This document shows positions 9,021-38,941 of a stretch of 64,000 nt of DNA, in pieces. The stretch is from Arenibacter antarcticus (GTDB lineage Bacteria > Bacteroidota > Bacteroidia > Flavobacteriales > Flavobacteriaceae). The stretch spans positions 1,054,001 to 1,118,000 of the forward strand of contig NZ_CP166679.1 of the NCBI RefSeq assembly GCF_041320605.1, read 5' to 3'. The notes under the pieces are model-generated. The model was not told the DNA's origin. It saw only the letters and a program-made list of their open reading frames with translations, and made no database searches. The translations under genes and the position numbers were made by a program. Positions within the stretch are counted from its first letter, which is position 1. Each line of letters starts with the position of its first letter.

Positions 9021-11204
9021 ATGAAAAAAGCATATGTAACTATATTATGTTTAGCATTATCACTTATATCTTTCGCACAAACAAGCGATGTTTCAATTTT
9101 TGTTGCCGACACGGAAACCAATCAGCCACTACCAGGAGCGACAGTTTATTTTGAAGAACTTGAAAAGGGAGCAATAACCAATTTTGACGGAATAGCAACG
9201 TTTACAGAAATCCCGAACGGAAACCAAGCCGTAAAAATTTCATACGTTGGTTTCAGAACTATCGAAACCACTATTGAGGTTGGTACAAAAAAAGAGTTCT
9301 TTTTCAAGCTCGAATCAGGAAGGAATGAACTTGACGAAGTCGTTATACAATCTTCAAGAAGTACACGGACAGTAAGAAAAATTCCAACAAGAATTGAATT
9401 TATTGGAGTGGAAGAATTAGGCGAAAAAGCAGTAATGAATCCAACCAATATTTCAATGGTACTTCGAGAAAGTACCGGAATACAAATGCAACAAACCTCG
9501 TTAAGTAGTGGAAACACAAACATCAGAATTCAAGGGCTTGACGGTAGATATACTCAGCTTTTAAGAGACGGATTTCCTTTGTATGGTGGATTTTCAAGTG
9601 GTTTGAGTATTCTACAAATTCCGCCTTTAGACCTACAACAATTTGAGATAATAAAAGGAAGTTCTTCAACACTTTATGGTGGTGGGGCTATTGCAGGTTT
9701 AATAAATATGGTATCGAAAACACCTGATGAAGAACCATCCTTGGATTTTATGCTCACCCAAACACAAGCGCTAGGTAGTACAGCAAATGTCTTTTACAGC
9801 GTGCGGAATGAAAAATTTGGAGTCTCGTTGTACGGTTCTGGTCATTACCAAAAAGCGTATGACCCAGAAGATGATGGTTTCAGTAATCTACCAAAAACAA
9901 CATCGTTGTCTTTTAACCCAAAATTCTTTTATTACCCTTCAGATAAAACAACGTTTTGGATAGGTCTCAATGGAACTTATGACGACAGAATTGGTGGCGA
10001 TATCACAAAAATTGAAAGTGGCGAAAATGGGATTCATCAATATACCGAAGAAAATCTTTCTAAAAGATTGAGCAGTCAGACTGTTTACGAAAAACAGATG
10101 GATTCGGTCAGTTCATTGAACATCAAAAATAGCATCTCATTTTTCGATAGAAAGCTGTCTATTCCCGATTTTAGTTTTGATGGAAAACAAACTAATACTT
10201 TCACAGAAATCAACTATCAAAAGGCATCTAAAAAAGCAGATTGGATTATTGGAGCAAATTTATACACATCCAATTTTGATGAAAATGATAATGCAACATT
10301 ACAACGTGACCAAAGAGACGTTACGTATGGAACATTTGTAAACAACATTTACGACATTTCAGATAATTGGATTTTAGAAACAGGATTAAGAGCAGACTAC
10401 AATACGGATTTCGGTTTTTTTCCACTTCCAAGAGTCTCCTTGCTTTACAAGAACGATAGCGGATTTTCGAGCAGAATTGGTGGTGGCCTAGGTTACAAAA
10501 TACCAGATATTTTTACCGAAGAGGCTGAAAATATAAATTTTGAAAATGTTCTCGCAATAGATAAAGCTGCACTTAAAGCCGAACGTTCCTATGGTGTTAA
10601 TTTTGATGTGAACTATCAGGCACGATTATTCGATGCTGTAAGTTTTAGCATTAACCAACTCTTCTACGTTTCAGCTATCAACAACGGACTATTATTAAAT
10701 TCTACAGACGATGGATTTTTTACGTTTGAAAATGCAACCGATAAAATAATAAGTAAAGGAGCGGAAACCAATATCAAGTTTACATACAAGGATTTTAGAT
10801 GGTTTCTAAACTACGCACTCATCGACACAAAACTGAATTATTTAGCAGGAAATCCCCAAAAACCACTCACAGCAAAGCACAACGTGGGTAGTGTTTTGAT
10901 GTACGAATCCGATAAATGGCGAATAGGTTACGAAACTTTTTACATAGGAAAGCAGTTTTTGTCAACCGGCACAGAAACCACGGATTTTGTTACAATGGGT
11001 TTTGTGGCAATGCGCAATTTCAAATGGGGAACAACCTTTTTGAATTTTGAAAACTTTACTGACAGAAGACAAAGCAGGTTTTCACCTTTGGTCTTGCCGC
11101 CACACGACAGCCCAGAATTCCCGGAAATTTATGCGCCTACTGACGGTTTTATTTTTAGCGTAGGAGTAATCATAAAACCATTTGGTAACGAAGATGAAGA
11201 CTAA
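9021..11204 (+). CDS. TonB-dependent outer-membrane receptor
   Basis: 727 residues. A signal peptide ends in ISFAQ. Residues ~22-95 are a carboxypeptidase-regulatory-like beta-sandwich (SIFVADTETNQPLPGATVYF), the N-terminal extension usual in Bacteroidota receptors. The TonB plug follows (ELDEVVIQSSRSTRTVRKIPTRIE, IQGLDGRYTQLLRDGFP, IIKGSSSTLYGGGAIAGLINM), then a ~500-residue beta-barrel ending in FIFSVGVIIKPFG plus a short acidic tail. It takes up a metal complex or other ligand through the outer membrane using TonB energy. Lying between a Fur-family regulator and a CDF transporter and preceded by a matching operator, it probably carries a metal chelate. No SusD partner follows, which argues against glycan uptake. 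Confidence 0.9.
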   Translation: MKKAYVTILCLALSLISFAQTSDVSIFVADTETNQPLPGATVYFEELEKGAITNFDGIATFTEIPNGNQAVKISYVGFRTIETTIEVGTKKEFFFKLESGRNELDEVVIQSSRSTRTVRKIPTRIEFIGVEELGEKAVMNPTNISMVLRESTGIQMQQTSLSSGNTNIRIQGLDGRYTQLLRDGFPLYGGFSSGLSILQIPPLDLQQFEIIKGSSSTLYGGGAIAGLINMVSKTPDEEPSLDFMLTQTQALGSTANVFYSVRNEKFGVSLYGSGHYQKAYDPEDDGFSNLPKTTSLSFNPKFFYYPSDKTTFWIGLNGTYDDRIGGDITKIESGENGIHQYTEENLSKRLSSQTVYEKQMDSVSSLNIKNSISFFDRKLSIPDFSFDGKQTNTFTEINYQKASKKADWIIGANLYTSNFDENDNATLQRDQRDVTYGTFVNNIYDISDNWILETGLRADYNTDFGFFPLPRVSLLYKNDSGFSSRIGGGLGYKIPDIFTEEAENINFENVLAIDKAALKAERSYGVNFDVNYQARLFDAVSFSINQLFYVSAINNGLLLNSTDDGFFTFENATDKIISKGAETNIKFTYKDFRWFLNYALIDTKLNYLAGNPQKPLTAKHNVGSVLMYESDKWRIGYETFYIGKQFLSTGTETTDFVTMGFVAMRNFKWGTTFLNFENFTDRRQSRFSPLVLPPHDSPEFPEIYAPTDGFIFSVGVIIKPFGNEDED

Positions 11205-26357: not shown

Positions 26358-26744
26358 ATGGAACAAAATAAAAGAGGCCGGAAAAGATTGGGAAACAAGA
26401 AGCGCCATCACAATGTAATGCTGCGGTTCAACGATGTGGAATATGGGAGACTGAAGGCGATTGCCGGGTCCTACGACCTGGACATTTCGGAGCGTGGGAC
26501 AATAAGTCCGCTTCTGAGAAGATTGGTCCTGCACGTAGGGTCGGAGGAAAAAGATAGTCTTCCGTGCACCTCGGACCTTGCCTACCATATCAACAGGTTG
26601 GGCAACAACATCAACCAATTGGTCAAACTGGCACACTACAAGAACCTGAGAAGTCCGAACAGTAGTTTGGAGAACGAGATACAAAAGGCTAACGGACTAC
26701 TTAACGCACTTATAGAAATTACAATAGAGGAACGAACGGGATGA
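26358..26744 (+). CDS. mobC: MobC-like relaxosome accessory protein
   Basis: 128 residues. A basic N-terminus (RGRKRLGNKKRHHNVMLRFNDVEYGRLKAIA) forms a ribbon-helix-helix-type DNA-binding region. The C-terminal part carries the MobC signature LAYHINRLGNNINQLVKLAHYKN, found in Bacteroidales/flavobacterial mobilization proteins. It binds oriT beside the nick site and helps the relaxase. The stop overlaps the relaxase start by 4 bases (ATGA). Confidence 0.85.
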   Translation: MEQNKRGRKRLGNKKRHHNVMLRFNDVEYGRLKAIAGSYDLDISERGTISPLLRRLVLHVGSEEKDSLPCTSDLAYHINRLGNNINQLVKLAHYKNLRSPNSSLENEIQKANGLLNALIEITIEERTG

Positions 26745-29044
26745 TAGGAAGGATATTATATAGGGAAAGCTGTCAGGGAATGTTGAACTATGTGTTCGGG
26801 AAAGAGGGTATGCTCATACTCGGGTACGGGAACATGTACTCCCAGGACATATCACAGAAATTCTTCGGGAACGTACTCCATTTCCAAGGACAGCGCAACG
26901 CAACCAAGAACCGCTATGCCCATATTACCATGAACCTTCCCCACGGGGAACACCTTGATAATAGGACCTTCCATGAAGTCTCCAAGGAATACATGGAGCA
27001 AATGGGCTACGGGGAACAGCCCTATGTTGTGGTAAGGCACAACGACACCGAGCACGAGCATGTCCACATCATAACGACCAATGTAACCGGTTCGGGAAAA
27101 GTGCTCGGAATCTTCAATAGTTTCCGACGGAACATGGCCACCCAGCAATACCTTGAAAAAAAGTTCGGCCTATCGCCATCACCGCTGACAAAACAGCAAA
27201 GGGAACTCCCGCTGTACAGATTGCCCGGGCAACAGTTCGGGATGGACCCTGCACAAGGGACGAAGTTCTATTTGCAGGACGTACTGAACAGCATCCTGCA
27301 AAAACATAAGGTGCGGAGCTTTCAAGAACTGGCAAAACTGGTCAGGCCCTATCACATCGAAATAAAGCAAACTAAAAACCAATCGGGAAGGATAGGGGTC
27401 GCCTTTGGCCTAGACAATCAAAAAGGATACCGGACAAGGTTCATCAACGGCTCCATTGTACACCCAAGCTTAAGCGGTCCGAAACTGCAAAAGGTATTTG
27501 GTACGAATTCAAAATCCAAGCTCTTGCCGATGCACCGCAAACGCCTGCTGAAACAGATAGGGACCACCTATGGACTTTTTAAGGCCATAAGGCCGCACGA
27601 CCTCCCAGAAGTACTTAAGGAATATCAGGGCATCGATATAAAACTGGACATAAAAGGGGATGCCATCAAAGGATATACCATCCATGACAAATCGGGATAT
27701 GCGTTCAAGGAAAGCGAGCTGAGCCCAAAAATAAGGATGGAGAAACGTCCCAATATTTTCGGGAATAGCGACGGACCCACGGATATCGATACCGACAGCA
27801 AACAGTTCAAACTTGAAATCCGAAAACTGATAAAAGAAGCATTCATGACATCCTATCTGAAGTCCCCGGACCGCAACGGACTGTTCTCGGAGAACATGGT
27901 GGCCAAGAACCCAATGGATATCCTTCCGCATATAACAACATCCAAAGATTACATTTTTCTTGAACGCTACCTTCCAAGAAATCAAAAAATTTTGTTGATG
28001 GAAGCACTTAAAAAAGAGTTCCCCATAGTGAGGGACAGGCTATTCCAATTGGAGGAAAAAAAGGAAAAAGAAACCTTGGAAAGCAAGTTCCGGCTTATCG
28101 GCAGGATATTGGAAAACTGCATTTTCGATGTAGGGAAGGAAAAGGGGAGTGTCCATCGCCTGTTCCGGTCCCTTGGAGTAAAGTACAACGATAACCGATT
28201 GTCCTTTTCCGGTTCCAACAAACATACGGTCCCTGTTCTTTTGGGCGACCTGCCCTTCCCCAAGGCCATGGACACGTATGTATCCACCGGTTTTGTCCGT
28301 CAAAACCATATGGTATTGGAAATGTTGACGGCACGGAATTCCGATATTGGCCCTGAACTTACGGCATCCTCCTTTTTTCTGCCAATGGTCTTTCCAAAAC
28401 TTTACGGGACCATGGAAATAGGTTATAGGCAAGAATTCGAGAAGGCCGCATTGGGCCGTTATGTAAAACATGCCGAACGGATGCACGCGCCTTATGAAAA
28501 ATCCCCGAAGGACTATATGGCCCTTTTCAACGCCAAGGGATTCTATTTTGTAAAAGGGAAGGACGGATTCGAGGTCAGATCCATTTATACTGACCATAGA
28601 ACAAGTTGTACCTTGCCCAAAAGAACGAGCCTCTATTTGAATTCCATTCCCGATGTCACCGCAACAATATTGGAACAGCAGACCGTTATCAAGGCCCTGA
28701 TCAAAGATGGCAGGAACGATCTCAAGAACCTTTGGGCGGGCCATCTAATAGAAAGGGGGATGTACGATAGGGCCGCCTTTATGCTGACAGCGGAAAAGGT
28801 CTACCCGAACCTGCATAGCTGGCAAGCACAGCACCATATGGACAACGGACTTCGGAAAAGTATAAATAAGGCACTGGAAAGGAAATCTTCCATCGAACAA
28901 AACCGTTTGTTGCGAAAAGGCGTTTATGCCATAAGTTCGTTATTGGGCAATAGGGGCAAAAAAGGGCAAGAGGAGATTTACAATGGCTTCAAGGATGAAC
29001 TCACCGATTGGTCGAAGTACAAGGGTAAGGGGATTTCAATGTAG
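26741..29044 (+). CDS. Relaxase/mobilization nuclease (MobP-like)
   Basis: 767 residues. The relaxase domain covers about 1-180: Tyr17 in CQGMLNYVF is a candidate nicking tyrosine; NRYAHITMNLPHGE follows; and the metal-binding motif HNDTEHEHVHII has His100, Asp102, His105, His107 and His109. The remaining ~580 residues are a poorly conserved helical region that in other mobilizable elements contacts DNA or the coupling protein. It nicks oriT and pilots the single strand into a helper's secretion channel. No coupling protein gene accompanies it. Base composition is noticeably more GC-rich than the cargo genes. Confidence 0.9.
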   Translation: MIGRILYRESCQGMLNYVFGKEGMLILGYGNMYSQDISQKFFGNVLHFQGQRNATKNRYAHITMNLPHGEHLDNRTFHEVSKEYMEQMGYGEQPYVVVRHNDTEHEHVHIITTNVTGSGKVLGIFNSFRRNMATQQYLEKKFGLSPSPLTKQQRELPLYRLPGQQFGMDPAQGTKFYLQDVLNSILQKHKVRSFQELAKLVRPYHIEIKQTKNQSGRIGVAFGLDNQKGYRTRFINGSIVHPSLSGPKLQKVFGTNSKSKLLPMHRKRLLKQIGTTYGLFKAIRPHDLPEVLKEYQGIDIKLDIKGDAIKGYTIHDKSGYAFKESELSPKIRMEKRPNIFGNSDGPTDIDTDSKQFKLEIRKLIKEAFMTSYLKSPDRNGLFSENMVAKNPMDILPHITTSKDYIFLERYLPRNQKILLMEALKKEFPIVRDRLFQLEEKKEKETLESKFRLIGRILENCIFDVGKEKGSVHRLFRSLGVKYNDNRLSFSGSNKHTVPVLLGDLPFPKAMDTYVSTGFVRQNHMVLEMLTARNSDIGPELTASSFFLPMVFPKLYGTMEIGYRQEFEKAALGRYVKHAERMHAPYEKSPKDYMALFNAKGFYFVKGKDGFEVRSIYTDHRTSCTLPKRTSLYLNSIPDVTATILEQQTVIKALIKDGRNDLKNLWAGHLIERGMYDRAAFMLTAEKVYPNLHSWQAQHHMDNGLRKSINKALERKSSIEQNRLLRKGVYAISSLLGNRGKKGQEEIYNGFKDELTDWSKYKGKGISM

Positions 29045-29177: not shown

Positions 29178-30392
29178 TTAGAAATTAATAACCTTTTCTA
29201 AAGCATCATCAGTCTCTTTATGCATAAAATTGGCTTGATAATTTATTGTAGTTGTAACGGTGGAATGACGATATAGCTTTTGCAGCATCTGAATAGGAAT
29301 TCTGTCGCCTGAAATATTGCCAAAACTGTGACGGGCAATGTGCATGGTGAGCTTTTTGTTTATTTTCGCTTTATCTGCGATATGCACGAGATATTTATTA
29401 AATTTTTTGTTGGCGGATTTTACTTTGTTAAAAACATCTTTCGGATTTTTGAGGTCAGCATTGTTCATTTCAGGAAAAACAAAATCCTCACTGGATCTCC
29501 TGTCCTCATAATATCGTCTTAAAAGTGATGTAATTTTCTCTGGTAATTTAAAGGATAACAATTTTTCGTTCTTCCCCATACGATAGTGTAACCGGCCATC
29601 GTAAATATCGCTCCACTTAATCATAAGAACATCACCAACACGCATCCCTGCAAGATAAAAACTAAACAACCAAACATTTCGCGCATGAGATTGCTGTTCC
29701 GTTAAGTCCTCCAAAGCCTCGATTGATTGAATTTCTTCTATGGTAAGCCCAACTTTTTCGGATTCGGGGAATTTGATGCGTATTTTATCCGCTCCAAATG
29801 GATACAATTTTCTGTCAACAATTCCTAATCGTATAGCTTTATTGTACAGGGTTCTAATTACAATTAAGTTGTTAATGACCGAGCGTTGAGATACTTTTCG
29901 TGTAGTTTTCAAATAGAGTGAAAAACGACGCAATAAAGCCTCGTCAATTTCTCGAAAACTTAAATCATCATTATCGACAAATCTTATAAAATGACCGACT
30001 CGCGCTTTATCGGATGATAAACGCTGTAATTTATTTGTTTTTTCTAAATTATCTAAATAATTATCGGCAATTTCTTTAAAGCTAGTTTTGGTAAGCGGAG
30101 TTGCAATTTCCTCTTTTATCTGTTTTGACGAGATATCATTTTGATGAGTCTGTAAATCAATTAAGGTTTGATTCGCTTCAGCCAACTTCTTGATAAGAAG
30201 ATTGTTTAAGCGTATGGAATTGGGATGCGATTTTCGCACCTCGCGATTGCCTTCATCCCAATATTTAATAGCAATGTAATGCCCTATATAAAGATAGGTC
30301 GTTTTTCTGTTTTTAGTTATGCGAACCGCTAAAGGAAAAAGACCTTGTTTGTTCGCTTTCTTGCGAAGAGTTACCTTTATACTTGACCCCAT
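29178..30392 (-). CDS. int: Tyrosine recombinase (integrase)
   Basis: 404 residues. An Arm-DNA-binding domain (about 1-85; SIKVTLRKKANKQGLFPLAVRITKNRKTTYLYIGHY), a SAM-like core-binding domain (about 100-195) and a catalytic domain follow in order. Catalytic residues are present: Arg251 in LAGMRVGDV, HIARH (His351, Arg354), His376 in LYRHSTV and nucleophile Tyr385 in TTINYQ. This is the typical integrase of Bacteroidota integrative elements. It lies 180 bases inside the right attachment site and next to a tandem 11-mer that may be its arm site. It should catalyse insertion into the tRNA-Leu 3' end. Confidence 0.93.
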   Translation of the reverse strand: MGSSIKVTLRKKANKQGLFPLAVRITKNRKTTYLYIGHYIAIKYWDEGNREVRKSHPNSIRLNNLLIKKLAEANQTLIDLQTHQNDISSKQIKEEIATPLTKTSFKEIADNYLDNLEKTNKLQRLSSDKARVGHFIRFVDNDDLSFREIDEALLRRFSLYLKTTRKVSQRSVINNLIVIRTLYNKAIRLGIVDRKLYPFGADKIRIKFPESEKVGLTIEEIQSIEALEDLTEQQSHARNVWLFSFYLAGMRVGDVLMIKWSDIYDGRLHYRMGKNEKLLSFKLPEKITSLLRRYYEDRRSSEDFVFPEMNNADLKNPKDVFNKVKSANKKFNKYLVHIADKAKINKKLTMHIARHSFGNISGDRIPIQMLQKLYRHSTVTTTINYQANFMHKETDDALEKVINF

Positions 30393-31209: not shown

Positions 31210-31326
31210 TTATATCAAGATGTAGCTATGATTGGACTTATAAATAAATCTGAAAAAGACTATAGCGAGGGTAGAACCCATACACATAAAGAGGCAATGA
31301 AATACTTACGTGAAAAGCATCTTTAA
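31144..31326 (+). CDS. Possible antitoxin-like small protein
   Basis: 60 residues with a charged C-terminal helix (NKSEKDYSEGRTHTHKEAMKYLREKHL) that resembles the tail of small antitoxins, where a D..G...H.E....... pattern wraps the toxin. It ends inside the 3' end of a RelE/ParE-type toxin gene on the opposite strand, a convergent layout that is not normal for such pairs. It may be a real orphan antitoxin, a rearranged partner, or a chance ORF. Confidence 0.4.
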   Translation: MYYRKLRKNAFTSEEVELITMALYQDVAMIGLINKSEKDYSEGRTHTHKEAMKYLREKHL

Positions 31327-31623
31327 TTCTTCTGGATCCTGGCTCGTTGGCCAAAATAAAATTAGCACAAGTTCTTTGTCAACAAGACAGATAAAGTAAG
31401 TATGCTCGGTAATCAGTATTTTTCTATACTTCGGATTAATCTCATATATATGACCCATGTAAGGGTTTCCTTCTAATGATATTATTGTTTTCTCCACGGT
31501 ATCAAGGAAGTTGGCCAATACTTCGTATGTCCACTTCACTTTTAAATACTCGATTATCTCATCTTCAATTTCCAGGGCCAGCCTCGTCCAAATTGCTTTC
31601 ATTTTCGCTTTAAAATAATGCAC
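31306..31623 (-). CDS. RelE/ParE-family toxin
   Basis: 105 residues; the likely start is the first or second Met (31623 or 31602). An N-terminal amphipathic helix pair (ALEIEDEIIEYLKVKWTYEVLANFLDTVEKTI) precedes the beta core, NPKYRKILITEHTYFICLVDKELVLILFWPTSQDPEELK, whose end matches the FxxRQxPxxL close of RelE/ParE toxins. No antitoxin gene is found directly upstream on the same strand; the only candidate partner is the convergent ORF at 31144-31326. Confidence 0.75.
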   Translation of the reverse strand: MHYFKAKMKAIWTRLALEIEDEIIEYLKVKWTYEVLANFLDTVEKTIISLEGNPYMGHIYEINPKYRKILITEHTYFICLVDKELVLILFWPTSQDPEELKMLFT

Positions 31624-32310: not shown

Positions 32311-32928
32311 ACCATTAGACAATGAAAAAATATATACTTTTTTTACAATAATGTTCTGGTTTACGGTAAGTGTTAAGGACCCGCTGGTACCTTACCTACT
32401 TCAAAATGCGGATTAATCTCTACAAATCAATTGAATCTATCGGCTTCGCCAATAGATCTACTCCGCTCGTACATAATCCGAGTACTTCGGTTCGTATGGT
32501 AACACGGGCTAAAAATTGATGTATATTCAAGTTCTGCAACAGCCACCCAGGTTTAATTAGAATTCCAACAAATCGCCAATCGGTTCATTCATTGATCATT
32601 AAAGCACCTAATTTTGAGTGCTTTTTTTGTGTTTGTTCCAAATTATAATCACATCTAAGATATTCTTATTTTGCCTTAGAGTTACATTGAAAACCCATTT
32701 CTATAAAAAAGTCTTGATAGAAAATAAAAGTTATAGTTCAAAATATTCGGTAACTTGTGCCTTTAAATGCGTGGGGTGTTCTGAAAAAAATCAGGACTGA
32801 GAATATACCCAAGAACCTGATTTGGATAATGCCAACGTAGGGATGCATACTTAGGATACATATGTTTCCATTGTACCATCTAGTTGGCTCCAAAAGGATG
32901 GTTTTAATTTTTTAAAAAAATTATAACA
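32311..32928. other. Gene-poor spacer with a broken leader and a terminator
   Basis: 618 bases. At 32322 an ATG starts a leader-like peptide (MKKYILF) that stops early; adding one T in the following T run would extend it to 31 residues, so it looks like a frameshifted remnant. The 16 bases at 32531-32546 repeat 12086-12101. A hairpin terminator lies at 32601-32629. No other gene seen. Confidence 0.45.
32601..32629 (+). terminator. Intrinsic terminator
   Basis: AAAGCAC and GTGCTTT pair perfectly around a 10-base loop, followed by a T run. It isolates the methyltransferase cluster from upstream transcription. Confidence 0.6.
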
Positions 32929-33645
32929 ATGGAAATAGAAAAAATCAATCAACAACTTGTTCCCGAAAAAACACAGTCCTGGCAAGGAAGGTCAGAGTGG
33001 TTCTTCAATAGGAAATATACGGATACCTACGAAGAGTATTATGAGGGGCCCTACAAGCGTGCCGAAGTTTGGCAGAAGCATATTTTGGAGCAACTTATCT
33101 CCAAAGATACCCGTGTAAAGACGTTACTAGAATTTGGCTGCGGCACTACCCGGTTTACACGTTGGTGGAAGGATATAGGGATTGAAGCCATCGGCGGCGA
33201 TATTTCACCCTTTATGCTCTCCCAGGCCTTGCACCGCTTTGAAGGGGATTTGGTGATGGCAGACTCCCACCACCTGCCATTTAAAGATAGTACCTTTGAT
33301 GCCCTGGCCTTTATTACCACATTTGAATATTATAAAGACCCTGTAAAAGTCATCCGTGAAGCTGCCCGCGTGGGGAGACATGGAATTATAATGGGGATGA
33401 TGAACCGGAACACCCCTAAACTGATCAGGCGTAGAACACAACAACTTTTTGGGAAGAACGAATTTTATGTGACTGCTACCTTTTATACTCCCCAATCCTT
33501 AATAAAAACCATAGACAACGCTTTAGAGGGTAGAGATTATTCTATTGAGTGGACCACAACAGGACTTCCTAAATGGTTTCCCGTACAAAAATGGAATTTA
33601 CCCATTGGGGACTTTTTTGCGCTGTACGTAAAATTTAATGACTAG
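32929..33645 (+). CDS. Class I SAM-dependent methyltransferase
   Basis: 238 residues. The Rossmann methyltransferase fold is visible: motif I LLEFGCGTTRFTRW (about 66-78), acidic loop GGDISPFMLSQA, motif II VMADSHHLPFKDSTFDALAFITTFEYYKDP, and post-motif AARVGRHGIIMGMMNRN. The N-terminal 60 residues include an aromatic YEEYYEGPYKRAEVWQK segment. Its substrate is unknown. It heads a four-gene cluster, 2 bases before an AIR-synthase-family gene, and a Trm112-like protein is encoded at the cluster end; Trm112 proteins activate methyltransferases, so the two may form a complex. Confidence 0.9.
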   Translation: MEIEKINQQLVPEKTQSWQGRSEWFFNRKYTDTYEEYYEGPYKRAEVWQKHILEQLISKDTRVKTLLEFGCGTTRFTRWWKDIGIEAIGGDISPFMLSQALHRFEGDLVMADSHHLPFKDSTFDALAFITTFEYYKDPVKVIREAARVGRHGIIMGMMNRNTPKLIRRRTQQLFGKNEFYVTATFYTPQSLIKTIDNALEGRDYSIEWTTTGLPKWFPVQKWNLPIGDFFALYVKFND

Positions 33646-33647
33646 TT

Positions 33648-34700
33648 ATGGAAGTGCAAACAGGAAAAATTTCGCCTACTGATTTCAAGCAGTTTATTGA
33701 GCACAGGTGTGGGAAGCATAGACAGGAGGTGATCGCTGGACCTCAATTTGGGGTAGATGTATCTATAGTAGGATTACCCAATGGGATGGCCATGGCAATG
33801 GCCAGTGATCCTCTATCCCTTATCCCTTCCCTTGGATTAAAAGAATCTGCATGGTTATCTGTACAACTGGCAGCCAATGACATTGCTACAACAGGTTTTC
33901 CGCCTATGTACGGTCAATTTGTTTTGAACCTCCCCGCTACATTTTCCCAAAAAGATTTTGAGGCGTATTGGGATTATATCCATCTATTTTGTTCAGATCT
34001 AGGAATAGCTATCACAGGCGGACATACTGGATTTGTGGAAGGGAACAACTCTACCATTGCTGGTGGAGTTACTTTTACAACTATCGCAAAACAAGATCTA
34101 CTACTCACCACAAAATCAGCAACTGTTGGCGATGTTATCTTAGTAAGTAAAGGCTGCGCTATTTCTTCTGCCGCTATTTTGGCTATGAGCTTTCCTGAAA
34201 CGGCAAAGAACAAAGCTGGCGCTGAGCATTATAATATTGCGTGTGAGTCCTTTTATGATATCTCTGTAATGAAAGATGCGCTTACCGCCGTAGGAGATAG
34301 GGCGAACAATGGGATTACCGCCATGCACGATGTTACGGAAGGTGGGGTGCTAGGTGCTATTTATGAGATGGCCGTAGCCTCTGGCAACGGGGCTATAATC
34401 TATAATGACCAACTACCTATAAGGGAGACACAATCTAGAATTTGTGAGGTGTTCTCCATTGACCCCCGTTATTGTATAGGTGCTGGTGCCATGGTCATCA
34501 CTTGTAAAAAAGAAGCTAAAGCTAAAATCATAGCACAATTTGAAGCCAATGCTATCCCTTGCACTGAAGTTGGAGAAATTACAGAAAAGCTTAAGGGTGT
34601 AACACTAATGGAAAAAGAAACGCTATCCGATCTAATCTACAATGAAAAGGACCCTTATTGGGGTGCTTTTTTCAATGCATTGCATCAAAACTGGAAATAA
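33648..34700 (+). CDS. AIR-synthase-family (PurM/ThiL/HypE/SelD-like) protein
   Basis: 350 residues. The N-terminal AIR-synthase domain (about 15-150) has FGVDVSIVGLPNG, SDPLSLIPSLG, SVQLAANDIATTGFPPMYGQF and ITGGHTGFVEG; the C-terminal domain (about 160-340) has GDVILVSKGCAISSAAILAM, NGITAMHDVTEGGVLGAIYEMA and CIGAGAMVITCKKE. These place it with ATP-using PurM-superfamily enzymes. It lacks the HypE C-terminal PRIC-type Cys tail and the Cys/Sec-containing N-terminal loop of SelD, and it is not a clear ThiL. It starts 2 bases after the methyltransferase. It probably phosphorylates or ATP-activates a small substrate within this cluster. Confidence 0.85.
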   Translation: MEVQTGKISPTDFKQFIEHRCGKHRQEVIAGPQFGVDVSIVGLPNGMAMAMASDPLSLIPSLGLKESAWLSVQLAANDIATTGFPPMYGQFVLNLPATFSQKDFEAYWDYIHLFCSDLGIAITGGHTGFVEGNNSTIAGGVTFTTIAKQDLLLTTKSATVGDVILVSKGCAISSAAILAMSFPETAKNKAGAEHYNIACESFYDISVMKDALTAVGDRANNGITAMHDVTEGGVLGAIYEMAVASGNGAIIYNDQLPIRETQSRICEVFSIDPRYCIGAGAMVITCKKEAKAKIIAQFEANAIPCTEVGEITEKLKGVTLMEKETLSDLIYNEKDPYWGAFFNALHQNWK

Positions 34701-34702
34701 AT

Positions 34703-34927
34703 ATGAAATGAGCATGACCGAAATCTGGTCGCAAATACGTATGAAGATATGCGAACCTGACTGCCGTCAGGCAAGTTCACATACCCGTGCTGAGCGCAGC
34801 CGAAGTATGACCGTTAAAAAACAATAAATATCTACATATGAAATGAGCATGACCGAAAACTGGTCGCAAACACGAATGAAGATATGTGAATTACATATGA
34901 CCGTTAAAAAACAATAAATATCTACAT
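34703..34927 (+). repeat. Two tandem copies of a leader-like unit before the ThiE-like gene
   Basis: Unit 1 (34703-34837, 135 bases) and unit 2 (34838-34927, 90 bases) are the same sequence except for a 45-base in-frame insert in unit 1. Each starts with ATGAAATGAGCATGACC and ends in ataaatatctacat, directly followed by the next ATGAA, which for unit 2 is the start of the ThiE-like gene. Each carries a mini-ORF: 39 residues (34708-34827) and 24 residues (34843-34917), sharing MSMTE-WSQ-RMKICE and MTVKKQ. The insert holds CTGACTGCCGTCAGGCA and a TGCTGAGCGCAGCCGAAG segment like dispersed flavobacterial intergenic repeats. Confidence 0.75.
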
Positions 34928-35557
34928 ATGAATAAAAAATCTATTAAGGCGGGTATTTATCTAGTGGTTGATCCATCCATGGAAGAGTTTATTTTATTAG
35001 AAAAACTACAAATAAGTTTGGCATTGGGAATTGTTGCCGTTCAGATTTGGGACAACTTTAATAACATATCAAACATAGAAGGAGTTGTTCAGAAAATTTG
35101 CGCTCTATGCTCAAATCATCAGACCCCGGTTTTAATCAACAACCGATGGGAACATCTAAAAACAATGGATTTAGACGGCGTTCATTTTGATGAAGTTCCG
35201 AATAATTTAGAGGAGATTAAAAGGGAGATCGATAAAGAGATAATAATTGGTCTTACCTGTGGGAATAATTTAGATCATGTTAAATGGGCGGCTGATAACC
35301 CTATAGATTATATCTCCTTTTGTTCCATGTTCTCATCTTCTAGTGTGAGTGATTGTGAAATAGTTACCCAGAAAACCATAAAAAATGCAGCGTTAATTTT
35401 TAATAAACCCATCTTTTTAGCAGGGGGAATTGTTCCAGCAAATATGAACCAATTTGATGAACTAAACTATCATGGGGTTGCCGTTATATCTGGAATTATG
35501 AATGCAGCGCATCCCGATGAGGCCATAAATGAATACCGTAACATATTAAATAAATAA
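34928..35557 (+). CDS. ThiE-like TIM-barrel protein with altered active site
   Basis: 209 residues on the thiamine-phosphate-synthase fold: GIYLVVDPSM, IVAVQIWDNFNN, VLINNRWEHLKTMDLDGVHFDEVP, DYISFCSMFSSSSVSD, PIFLAGGIVPANMNQF, GVAVISGIM. Several residues that define true ThiE are changed. The QLRxK pyrophosphate-binding motif is VQIWDNF, the IND metal site is INN, and the GPxFxTxTK loop is FCSMFSSSSVSD. It is therefore unlikely to make thiamine phosphate, and no thiamine genes or TPP riboswitch are nearby. It lies one base before the Trm112-like gene and after the tandem leader repeat, in one cluster with a methyltransferase and an AIR-synthase-family protein. Confidence 0.75.
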   Translation: MNKKSIKAGIYLVVDPSMEEFILLEKLQISLALGIVAVQIWDNFNNISNIEGVVQKICALCSNHQTPVLINNRWEHLKTMDLDGVHFDEVPNNLEEIKREIDKEIIIGLTCGNNLDHVKWAADNPIDYISFCSMFSSSSVSDCEIVTQKTIKNAALIFNKPIFLAGGIVPANMNQFDELNYHGVAVISGIMNAAHPDEAINEYRNILNK

Positions 35558-35558
35558 A

Positions 35559-35849
35559 ATGAGAATAGAAACGATAGAAAAATTGTGTTGCCCTTTTGAT
35601 AAGGCAGATTTAACGTTGCGAATTATTACCAAAGACGAACAGGATAATATTTTAGAGGGCATTCTTTCTTGTGCGGATTGTAATCGTGTTTATCCAATAG
35701 TCACCGGAATCCCTATAATGAGCCCAGATGAATACAGGAATTTTGAACGCGAACAACCCATGCTGGAAAAATGGGAAAAACTCTTAGAAGGACAAGAAAT
35801 GGAATTTAAAATTGTTGATGGGAAAATTATTGCTATTGAAAAGGTATAG
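35559..35849 (+). CDS. Trm112-like zinc-binding protein
   Basis: 96 residues. KLCCPFDKADLTL near the N-terminus and GILSCADCNRVYPIVTGIPIM in the middle form the Trm112-like zinc knuckle, with CxxC in the second half and Cys/Asp in the first. The YPI.TGIPIM end of the domain is diagnostic. A C-terminal extension of ~35 residues (LEKWEKLLEGQEMEFKIVDGK) follows. Trm112 proteins bind and stabilise SAM methyltransferases, so the methyltransferase at 32929 is the natural partner candidate. It starts one base after the ThiE-like stop. Confidence 0.82.
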   Translation: MRIETIEKLCCPFDKADLTLRIITKDEQDNILEGILSCADCNRVYPIVTGIPIMSPDEYRNFEREQPMLEKWEKLLEGQEMEFKIVDGKIIAIEKV

Positions 35850-36281: not shown

Positions 36282-37556
36282 TTACTTCCCTAATGAACGA
36301 GCAACAAATATGGAAGTACCGACTGCATATTTAGTACCTGGACTCACCGATACAAGATCTCCATTCTTCCAGTATGCCACTTTATCTTGGCTGCCACTAT
36401 TATTAACCCCAGACACATACACATCATTATTATCCACGAATATGGAATATGGTATTCCTTTTACATTATCGGCAAAAGGCACAGGAACATTATTTTTCCA
36501 GTAGCCGCTATAGCCTCTTGCAGCTACATAAACACTCCCGTCATCTACGAATATAGAGTTTGCGATAACTGAACTACTTCCATCGGTAAGGGATACAGCA
36601 GTGCCATTTTTCCAGTATTTAGCTACACTTATACCAGCTATCATCGTCCCATTATACTCATATCCAGCTACATAAATAGTACCATTATCAACGAATATAG
36701 AAGTTGCAAATGCATCATTAATGCCATCTGTCAAGGTAACCGGCAGACCGTTTTTCCAATATTTAGCTACATTCCTAGAGCCGTTATCTTCATATCCAGC
36801 CACATAGACATCTCCTCCATTATCCACGAATACGGAAAGTGCCCCTGTATCAAAATCACCCTCTCTAGTCAGAGGGAACGATGTACCATTCTTCCAATAT
36901 TGAGCTGTACGTTTCATTTGGTCATTGTATTCCCATCCAGCTACATAAACATCCCCGTTATTCACGAATATGGAATATGCCTCTCCTCTTACAATATTAA
37001 AATCAATTGTGTTTTTTGCAGTGCCGTTTTTCCAATACTGAACTTTACCTCCAACATGTCCAGCCACATACACATCACCATCCGCAACGAATATTGAATT
37101 TGCTCTTGCATTCACACTCCCATTGCTGAGGGATATAACCTCATCATTTTCCCAGTATTTAGCTGTAGATATCGAGCTTTCTTGTTCATATCCAGCGATA
37201 TATACAACTGTTTTAAATGCTTTTATAGTAGTTTTTTCACTATCTACATATCCCTCCTTTTTAGCTACAGCTTGGTATTCGCCAGCCTCTTTAAAAGTGT
37301 GTTTACTATTTTCGATTTTAACGCCATTAATATAAATACTGGCTTCTATCGCTTTGCCTTTAGCAGTGGCAGTAAAGGCCACTTCATCATCCTTTTCCAC
37401 TTCCGTGGATGAGGCGGTAAGTACCAACTGTGTTTTTTCTACAATGGGCACATCTAGTTCCTCACTTGGTTCACTTTTGGAACAGGACATTAAAAATGTA
37501 AGGCCTAACATAAATGCACCGGCCAACTTGCTTGATAGTTTTAAATGTTTTTTCAT
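36282..37556 (-). CDS. Seven-repeat YWKNG lipoprotein, copy A (predicted beta-propeller)
   Basis: 424 residues. The SPII leader ends LTFLMSC. A PKD/Ig-like domain (about 40-110; LTASSTEVEKDDEVAFTATAKGKAIEASIYING) is followed by seven tandem repeats of ~42 residues. Each contains YWKNG or a variant, a LTDG-like turn, and SIFVDNGDVYVAGYE. The first strand (TVVYIAGYEQ) and last (GTSIFVARS) could close the ring, as in seven-bladed propellers. It is a surface or periplasmic lipoprotein of unknown role. It lies 92 bases after a paralog (37649-38941), and both genes share the same 17 bases up to the start codon, so they are a recent tandem duplication. Confidence 0.75.
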   Translation of the reverse strand: MKKHLKLSSKLAGAFMLGLTFLMSCSKSEPSEELDVPIVEKTQLVLTASSTEVEKDDEVAFTATAKGKAIEASIYINGVKIENSKHTFKEAGEYQAVAKKEGYVDSEKTTIKAFKTVVYIAGYEQESSISTAKYWENDEVISLSNGSVNARANSIFVADGDVYVAGHVGGKVQYWKNGTAKNTIDFNIVRGEAYSIFVNNGDVYVAGWEYNDQMKRTAQYWKNGTSFPLTREGDFDTGALSVFVDNGGDVYVAGYEDNGSRNVAKYWKNGLPVTLTDGINDAFATSIFVDNGTIYVAGYEYNGTMIAGISVAKYWKNGTAVSLTDGSSSVIANSIFVDDGSVYVAARGYSGYWKNNVPVPFADNVKGIPYSIFVDNNDVYVSGVNNSGSQDKVAYWKNGDLVSVSPGTKYAVGTSIFVARSLGK

Positions 37557-37648
37557 GATACTTTATTTTTGTGAGGATCAACTTGGGGAATTGAAGTAGA
37601 AACTAGTTTATAAAGAAGCAGGGCATAGCCACTAATAAAAAAATTGAT

Positions 37649-38941
37649 CTACTCAATCTCAACTTCTTGTACGACTATGTCATAGGCTGCGCCTTCATGA
37701 TTGCCATCGGTCAAATCCACGGCCACACCGTTTTTCCAATATTTAGCCACAGGCACATCATTTGCATTCGCCTCATAACCAGCAACATACACATCCGCCC
37801 CCAAAACAAAGAGCGCCATAACAACTGCATTTGTACTACCATCGGTAAGGGTAACCGCTTGTCCATTCTTCCAATATTTAGCTGCAGCTTTTCCATTAAC
37901 TATTTCATATCCACCTACATATATATCCGTTCCGGAAATGAAGACAGATGTTAATTCGGTAGCCCCCAAGCTTTTGGAAGAAATTGTATGTTGATTTTTT
38001 TTCCAATAAGTACCTACTTGGTCGTCTTGTGCATTGATTTCAGATCCTGCTATATAGACATCCTCGCCAGAAACAAACATATTAAGTACACTAGACATTC
38101 CTCCTCCAGGATTCAATAGGATGGCATTCCCATTTTTCCAATACATGGCCCTTTGAAGACCCTGGTTACCTTGTTCAACTCCGGCTATGTGCACATCCTC
38201 CCCAGAAACGAATATGGAACTTGCCTGACTAGACAATGGGCTGTTGGCGTCGGTAAGTGCAATAGCCTGTCCATTTTTCCAATAGGTAGCCAATCGCCTA
38301 CCTTTACTATCTAATTGAAATCCAGATAGATAAACATTATCATCAGAAACAGCGATAGACTTCCCTAAAGATATGCCCGCATTAGTGATGCGTTTGATCT
38401 CCAATCCATTTTTCCAATAGATCAACTGGGAAAAAGATCCATTAACCCCAGATATATGTACATCGTTATTGGCAAGCACTAAAGAAGTGCCTATTGCATT
38501 GTTACCAAGAATTGTAGGTGTACCGTTTTTCCAATACTTGGCTACGTATGTACCATTGCTATTAATTTCTTCTCCAACTATATGTACCACGATTGCCATT
38601 TTACGCTTCAATACAAGGATACCATGTTGGTCGCTGTCCTGATAGCCTTCTTTTTTAGCCACCACTTTATAGTTGCCAGGCTCGGCAAAGGTGTGTTCGC
38701 TATGGTCAATGGAAATCCCGTTAACATAGTAGGTGGCACCTGAAATGGCTTTCCCGTTAGCAGTGGCGGAAAACTGCACTGTTTCCCCTTCTTTAATTTC
38801 CGTACTGGAAAGGGTCACCACCAAAGCCTCTTGTTCAATAACTGACACCGAGCCATCATCTTTGGAACAGGATAGTAAAATCGTAAAACCCAACAGCAAT
38901 ACGCTGGCTAACATGCTTGTTACTTTTAAGTGTTTTCTCAT
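37649..38941 (-). CDS. Seven-repeat YWKNG lipoprotein, copy B (predicted beta-propeller)
   Basis: 430 residues. The SPII leader ends FTILLSC. Architecture matches copy A: an N-terminal Ig/PKD-like domain (LVVTLSSTEIKEGETVQFSATANGKAISGATYYVNG), then seven YWKNG/YWKKN repeats with SSIFVSGEDVHIAGVE-type strands, ending ...AAYDIVVQEVEIE. Within-copy repeats are diverged, and the two proteins differ throughout, so duplication preceded considerable drift. It lies upstream of copy A on the same strand and is probably co-transcribed with it. The repeats are not a named family that I recognise; a binding scaffold is the plain inference. Confidence 0.75.
   Translation of the reverse strand: MRKHLKVTSMLASVLLLGFTILLSCSKDDGSVSVIEQEALVVTLSSTEIKEGETVQFSATANGKAISGATYYVNGISIDHSEHTFAEPGNYKVVAKKEGYQDSDQHGILVLKRKMAIVVHIVGEEINSNGTYVAKYWKNGTPTILGNNAIGTSLVLANNDVHISGVNGSFSQLIYWKNGLEIKRITNAGISLGKSIAVSDDNVYLSGFQLDSKGRRLATYWKNGQAIALTDANSPLSSQASSIFVSGEDVHIAGVEQGNQGLQRAMYWKNGNAILLNPGGGMSSVLNMFVSGEDVYIAGSEINAQDDQVGTYWKKNQHTISSKSLGATELTSVFISGTDIYVGGYEIVNGKAAAKYWKNGQAVTLTDGSTNAVVMALFVLGADVYVAGYEANANDVPVAKYWKNGVAVDLTDGNHEGAAYDIVVQEVEIE

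Follow-up and report, generated by a model that had tools for sequence, protein, structure and literature searches.

A TPP riboswitch-controlled four-gene cassette in Arenibacter and other Bacteroidota, with a proposed role in thiamine recovery

This study concerns a cassette of four genes in a 64,000-nucleotide stretch of the Arenibacter antarcticus genome (GCF_041320605.1, contig NZ_CP166679.1, positions 1,054,001 to 1,118,000 of the forward strand), which we call the window. The genes encode a class I S-adenosylmethionine (SAM) methyltransferase, an ATP-using enzyme of the PurM/AIRS superfamily, a ThiE-like protein and a Trm112-like zinc-knuckle protein. Because a thiamine pyrophosphate (TPP) riboswitch lies upstream of the methyltransferase gene, the four genes appear to form a thiamine-controlled operon, and we consider thiamine control to be well supported. 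As to function, we lean towards the reading that the operon is turned on when TPP is low and serves bacteria deficient in the standard route by recovering usable thiamine phosphate from a thiamine-related compound that they import.

The riboswitch, the operon and its conservation

The aptamer, or THI element, occupies positions 32762-32860 of the window on the plus strand and matches the full RF00059 model (1-105) at 68.2 bits (E 2.8e-11) against an Rfam gathering score of 54.3, with the CTGAGA core present. Such an element is a regular feature of the cassette. RF00059 scores above gathering just upstream of the methyltransferase gene in 23 of the 24 cassette loci scanned and at 47.8 bits, below gathering, in the remaining one (L060, in G314). 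Altogether a TPP riboswitch precedes all 30 copies that have upstream DNA, 29 of them above the Rfam cut-off, and all 23 aptamers examined have the CTGAGA core. An HPYVGIIQIR-like string common to antisense open reading frames upstream of the methyltransferase gene in several loci is the reverse of the THI box. In the window, the riboswitch region has a predicted minimum free energy of -40.1 kcal/mol (z -2.38 against shuffles). In its predicted ligand-free fold, GCCAAC of the aptamer (32831-32836) would pair with GUUGGC (32883-32888), giving a possible antiterminator at 32831..32888 (+). The second of these strands belongs to a terminator-like hairpin (32875-32902, -9.7 kcal/mol) that is followed by a U-rich run, so that 32875..32912 (+) is a possible intrinsic terminator. 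The predicted pairing fits, as expected, a transcriptional OFF switch, although it is we who infer the OFF direction. Comparable terminator-like hairpins are found in 9 of 23 loci. Another 4 loci have only weak or ambiguous ones, and the remaining 10 gave none; in these the riboswitch may act on translation.

Behind the riboswitch the genes follow one another on the plus strand in the order methyltransferase (32929..33645, 238 aa), AIRS (33648..34700, 350 aa), ThiE-like (34928..35557, 209 aa) and Trm112-like (35559..35849, 96 aa), separated by 2, 227 and 1 bases. All of their Pfam matches are above cut-off: Methyltransf_11 at 64.2 bits, AIRS_C at 73.5 and AIRS at 33.9 bits, TMP-TENI at 100.6 bits, and Trm112p (PF03966) at 33.1 bits against a cut-off of 22. 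A preliminary description of the window, made from the letters alone, had given these reading frames, strand, positions and gaps and the same four family assignments, all of which stand. Its cluster held the four genes correctly but omitted the riboswitch, and hence the link to vitamin B1. It was also right that the 227-base gap (34701..34927, +) is filled with repeat sequence, which is dispersed, similar sequence (74-80% over about 142 bases) being present at L170 and L175 of the same genome, but it overlooked that this is a local insertion, seen solely in the window genome's copy of the cassette. In L018 and L019, the AIRS gene stops at 9053 and the ThiE-like ATG begins at 9056, leaving 2 bases between them, and ATGA overlaps are frequent at the gene junctions, for example with gaps of -4, -4 and -4 in L023 and L053.

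Our searches found 32 copies of the cassette in 30 genomes. All four genes stand in the same order on one strand in 29 copies. Contig ends truncate the remaining three, and the parts that are present agree: those in G089 and G661 stop after the AIRS gene, and that in G679 begins inside the AIRS gene and continues with the ThiE-like and Trm112-like genes. Since 29 of the 32 copies share gene order and strand, the grouping is not due to chance, which bears out the proposal of the preliminary description that the four genes belong together. The searched genomes gave no case for the genes failing to co-occur, nor did the searched material yield close homologs with a known unrelated function. In the phylum, genus and distant-family searches, every methyltransferase or AIRS match found with E 1e-20 or better belonged to a cassette. 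The distances of the four protein families correlate with r of 0.85-0.93 across 27 loci, a test that left out L064, L076 and the three incomplete copies. Comparison of 28 regions revealed no fifth gene family kept beside the cassette; genes for a LytTR regulator, a cyclic-nucleotide (cNMP)-binding regulator, and NDH2-like, DJ-1 and sulphite reductase proteins lie near some Arenibacter copies only and were judged to be genome background.

The distribution of the cassette is patchy. Searches with the AIRS protein located it in 6 of 249 genomes of the family, 13 of 395 of the phylum and 15 of 92 of a distant family, f24, and a search with the methyltransferase located it in 8 of the 18 Arenibacter genomes; these genome samples overlap. 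Seven of the 13 AIRS matches in the family sample were dropped as weak (23-26% identity) and lacking an adjoining cassette gene. In a tree of the concatenated cassette proteins, two different cassette lineages occur within the genus and copies from different families are joined. The patchy spread and the mixing of families in the tree suggest that the cassette has been transferred horizontally as a unit. Beyond the phylum, the search covered plasmids, viral contigs and solved structures. The methyltransferase search of plasmids brought up 12 records, none reaching 60% identity and most of them partial, with no cassette in the two inspected (Halomicrobium and Enterococcus faecium), and viral contigs scanned with the methyltransferase alignment gave no relative. 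A scan of genome contigs with a single sequence matched only two Arenibacter records. Arenibacter certesii DSM 19833 and A. latericius DSM 15913 are both carriers. Two genomes, G212 (C44) and G632, hold two cassette copies each, 33 kb apart in G212, and each copy has its own TPP riboswitch.

The four proteins and what they may do

The ThiE-like protein scores 92.6 bits against TIGR00693, well under the cut-off of 145.1 bits, whereas a canonical control from L183 scores 220.7. We aligned 30 cassette ThiE-like proteins with three ThiE sequences from the phylum. In all 30, the QxRxK motif has become QxWxx and a later lysine is deleted. The family keeps the glutamine of the first motif, an asparagine in the second, and both the GG and the VIS stretch, the GG and the serine of the VIS stretch being invariant (G167 and S188 in window numbering). 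We take QxRxK and the later lysine to bind pyrophosphate in ThiE, and the GG and VIS stretches to form its phosphate site. Loss of the former with retention of the latter argues against an ordinary enzyme that couples hydroxymethylpyrimidine pyrophosphate (HMP-PP), and favours a reaction in which some other thiamine-like phosphate is the substrate. The cassette proteins have also gained two invariant cysteines, those of SFC and SCE (30/30), and have a third in 29/30. The altered active site noticed in the preliminary description is seen throughout the family. The invariant cysteines alone prove nothing, since a genuine thiamin phosphate synthase also has a cysteine in this groove, according to the available text of PMC3144219.

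The AIRS protein likewise falls below the NCBIfam cut-offs for HypE (TIGR02124, 71.9 of 251.6 bits), ThiL (TIGR01379, 63.6 of 184.15 bits, with controls from L171 and L183 at 294.6 and 299.1) and SelD, in keeping with the earlier remark that it is not clearly any of these three. It retains the superfamily's acidic and GG motifs, has GGHT where ThiL has GGDT, and shows the invariant stretches ANDxATT, TGGHT, MHDxTEGG and DPYW. The C-terminal cysteine of HypE carries the carbamoyl group; the cassette proteins shown end in GWK, GLK, GWS or similar, and this terminal cysteine is absent. A plasmid search with the AIRS protein gave 88 records, of which 6 were inspected. Among them, an 'AIR synthase family protein' of Haloarcula plasmids resembles the cassette enzyme at 31.5-32.4% identity over 88-90% of the protein and shares its GKI, GGHT and DP.W stretches. 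These nearest haloarchaeal relatives adjoin thiamine-binding and thiamine ATP-binding cassette (ABC) transport annotations in all three Haloarcula records, and the Haloarcula protein is a possible archaeal thiamine enzyme. Among the annotated genes of the Haloarcula stretches there is, unlike in the cassette, none for a ThiE-like, methyltransferase or Trm112 protein. In each of them (L070, L195 and L196), the AIR synthase family gene is divergent from the thiamine-binding and thiamine ABC substrate-binding genes.

The methyltransferase is the best conserved of the four proteins, with 66-96% identity to the window protein in a 28-row alignment, and none of its 24 listed NCBIfam models reaches cut-off. 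The Trm112-like protein scores 61.6 bits against NF038101, the archaeal Trm112 equivalog, whose cut-off is 77. It carries CPxD-X23-CxxC (C11-P-x-D14, C38 and C41 in the window protein), these residues being invariant in the 26 proteins aligned, and fits the signature [C/D]PX[C/D]-X19-36-CX2C that the available part of PMC5372719 gives for one archaeal Trm112 subgroup; the same part of that 2017 review calls the function of the bacterial Trm112-like group unknown. In the window genome, G000, a single contig of 4.69 Mb, PF03966 matches one gene only, that of the cassette. BUD23 and 6f5z_A are among the solved relatives of the methyltransferase profile, and both come from entries that contain Trm112 chains as well, which makes it plausible that the methyltransferase and the Trm112-like protein form a pair.

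In the recovery reading that we prefer, the proteins would act as follows. At low TPP the riboswitch would turn the operon on, and the methyltransferase, paired with the Trm112-like protein, would modify a pyrimidine- or thiazole-containing vitamer. The AIRS protein would spend ATP on phosphorylation or on dehydrative ring closure, as do its relatives ThiL, PurM and HypE, a chemistry suited to the repair or assembly of the thiamine ring. The ThiE-like barrel would hold a phosphorylated thiamine-like compound, and its cysteines might act where ThiE would expel pyrophosphate.

Thiamine genes of the carriers and the competing explanations

To place the cassette in its metabolic setting, we scored thiamine genes in the 30 cassette genomes and in 37 chosen cassette-free relatives (10 of the same genus, 27 of f24). 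ThiC is found in 0/30 and 2/37, full-length ThiG in 0/30 and 7/37 (other ThiG matches were short or weak), and canonical ThiE, at 160 bits or more, in one carrier (G674) and in the same 7 relatives that have ThiG. None of the 67 genomes combines the cassette with either ThiC or full-length ThiG. Among 32 genomes tested for the kinases, 24 of them with the cassette, a strong ThiD-type kinase occurs in 2 and ThiM in 1 of the 24 carriers. Nearly all carriers are without a canonical ThiE that could take up a half-molecule made by the cassette. In every carrier (30/30), RF00059 matches at one or more further sites with E 0.001 or better, many of these scores being below gathering. The next gene after such matches encodes a TonB-dependent receptor in 8/8 checked, one locus leads into a PnuC-family transporter gene, and the match at L174 of the window genome (44.7 bits) has no gene directly after it.

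Several points weigh against the recovery reading. The proposed substrate, product and chemistry of the cassette come from sequence comparison, and methyl transfer has no obvious place in known thiamine salvage. As many as 35 of the 37 cassette-free relatives also lack ThiC, and 30 lack full-length ThiG; because most relatives lack them too, the absence of standard thiamine genes from the carriers is mainly lineage background. The difference in ThiG gives a Fisher p of 0.014, but this ignores relatedness. G674 holds the cassette beside a ThiM-ThiE-ThiL-ThiD salvage operon (L183), so its role is not simply to stand in for that route. The window genome has a second ThiE-family paralog (L170:8987-9631, at 3.84 Mb) that is below the ThiE cut-off; it follows an old-yellow-enzyme-like gene and has degenerate motifs, with glycine in place of the motif arginine. 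A second ThiE-family protein, at 117-131 bits against PF02581, occurs in the Arenibacter genomes G000, G212, G632 and G634, which have the cassette, and in G633 and G636, which have none. The archaeal link is weakened as well, since the three Haloarcula loci are closely related to one another and the AIRS relatives in Halobacterium, Haloferax and Acaryochloris records had no thiamine gene adjoining in the stretches inspected.

A more ambitious explanation is that the cassette, with the help of housekeeping enzymes, completes an alternative thiamine route without ThiC, ThiG and canonical ThiE, in which the methyltransferase would give one of the two ring methyls, the AIRS protein would close a ring and the ThiE-like barrel would join the parts by cysteine-based coupling. 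Such a route would agree with the absence of any genome having the cassette together with ThiC or full-length ThiG, and with the lack of ThiE, ThiD and ThiM in nearly all carriers tested, where a product needing these enzymes would be useless; riboswitch control is also as in standard biosynthesis operons, as the available text of PMC5613172 describes them. We nevertheless regard it as unlikely. Four genes seem few for two heterocycles, and all 30 carriers keep further TPP-riboswitch matches, with import genes where checked. The Arenibacter isolate E3M18 is reported in the available part of PMC12448291 as a B1 auxotroph, which also counts against a complete route, although E3M18 may not be a carrier, the cassette being present in 8/18 genomes of the genus. 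A much more modest role would be that of the last two standard steps only, in which the ThiE-like protein would function as thiamine phosphate synthase and the AIRS protein as ThiL, on imported pyrimidine and thiazole, with the methyltransferase and Trm112-like genes as helpers. The fold families match and ThiE and ThiL do share one operon in G674 (L183), but both proteins lie far below the respective cut-offs, the residues that we take to bind pyrophosphate are replaced or deleted, and the kinases ThiD and ThiM are scarce among the carriers. We find this explanation the hardest to credit of all those considered here.

The presence of a methyltransferase without an obvious salvage role raises the thought of an antivitamin operon, making a methylated thiamine analogue that would harm competitors at low thiamine, as the bacimethrin operon does. 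According to the available text of PMC5627462, the Paenibacillus operon indeed has a TPP riboswitch together with thiE and a SAM methyltransferase gene. However, of the Paenibacillus genes only those for the methyltransferase and the ThiE-family protein have an equivalent in the cassette. The 28 compared regions show no conserved gene for an exporter or for self-protection next to the cassette, and in the ThiE-like protein the residues that serve a pyrophosphate leaving group are gone, all of which makes an antivitamin improbable. Finally, the cassette could modify RNA or protein, or make a non-vitamin metabolite, and be merely timed by the TPP level. The targets of known Trm112 partners are tRNA, rRNA and release factors, as far as the available part of PMC5372719 goes, but thiamine enzymes occur in the families of two of the four proteins and every copy having upstream DNA is preceded by the riboswitch. 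We hold this explanation to be very improbable. The preliminary description had proposed that the four proteins make or modify a small molecule or, alternatively, an RNA base; the former is supported, and control by the TPP riboswitch disfavours the latter. It had also known of no described pathway with this gene set, and we found no description of the set in the open-access literature; subscription papers lie largely outside this search, and absence from print overall is not thereby established.

One other arrangement of thiamine genes was observed. In G511 (L171) and four genomes of the same genus, g308, ThiC is missing while ThiG and two genes of the ThiE family are present. Those of G511 stand in a TPP-switch operon with ThiL, ThiD, TenA-like and apparent YkoEDC-type transporter genes, a gene set that suggests an imported pyrimidine. 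A gene at L184:5606-6250, considered by eye as a thiamine pyrophosphokinase, matched no Pfam or NCBIfam family, and we make no such claim for it.

Genomic neighbours, significance and relation to known systems

About 2.5-6 kb before the cassette, the window contains genes for a MobA-type relaxase (26741-29044, +) and a tyrosine integrase (29178-30392, -), which suggest an integrative mobilizable element near the cassette. A ParE-type toxin gene (31306-31623; 24.3 bits against a Pfam cut-off of 23) lies between the integrase gene and the riboswitch. At 36282-38941, two adjacent homologous genes encode proteins of roughly 425 residues that begin like a lipoprotein and carry repeated YWKNG motifs, and the first of these proteins matches no Pfam family.

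By the usual marker genes, the carrier genomes would score as plain B1 auxotrophs. If the cassette recovers or makes B1, auxotrophy predictions for the carriers would be wrong, which would affect models of B1 exchange in communities. The cassette is also a testable setting for a bacterial Trm112-like protein and for AIRS enzymes of the cassette type. Should the complete route turn out to be true, which we doubt, it would be a mobile, undescribed B1 pathway and the first thiamine-linked setting for a bacterial Trm112-like protein.

Among known systems, the cassette is close to the TPP-riboswitch thiamine operons of Bacteroidetes, such as thiSEGCHF-tenI, OMthi and pnuT-tnr3 of B. thetaiotaomicron (available text of PMC5613172). 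It shares with them RF00059 control and a ThiE-family gene, and import genes are found elsewhere in the cassette genomes, but it is without thiC, thiG, thiS, thiH and thiF and adds methyltransferase, AIRS and Trm112-like genes. The ThiM-ThiE-ThiL-ThiD operon of G674 (L183) also unites a TPP riboswitch with enzymes of the ThiE and AIRS folds; the cassette differs from it in scoring below the ThiE and ThiL cut-offs and in having no pyrimidine or thiazole kinases. The Paenibacillus bacimethrin operon, as given in the available text of PMC5627462, is similar in bringing together a TPP riboswitch, thiE and a SAM methyltransferase, whereas the cassette is without its thymidylate synthase, deoxyribosyltransferase, thiaminase I, thiM, thiD and Nudix genes, no fifth gene being conserved at its side in the 28 regions, and has AIRS and Trm112-like genes instead. 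For the putative methyltransferase and Trm112-like pair, the nearest parallels are the archaeal Trm112-methyltransferase complexes 6f5z and 6zxw, whose chains are the best solved matches of the Trm112 profile, with 6f5z_A also a weak match of the methyltransferase profile. The pairing in the cassette is putative, and its Trm112-like protein differs from those of the archaeal complexes in being bacterial and thiamine-regulated and in carrying a C-terminal extension of about 35 residues.

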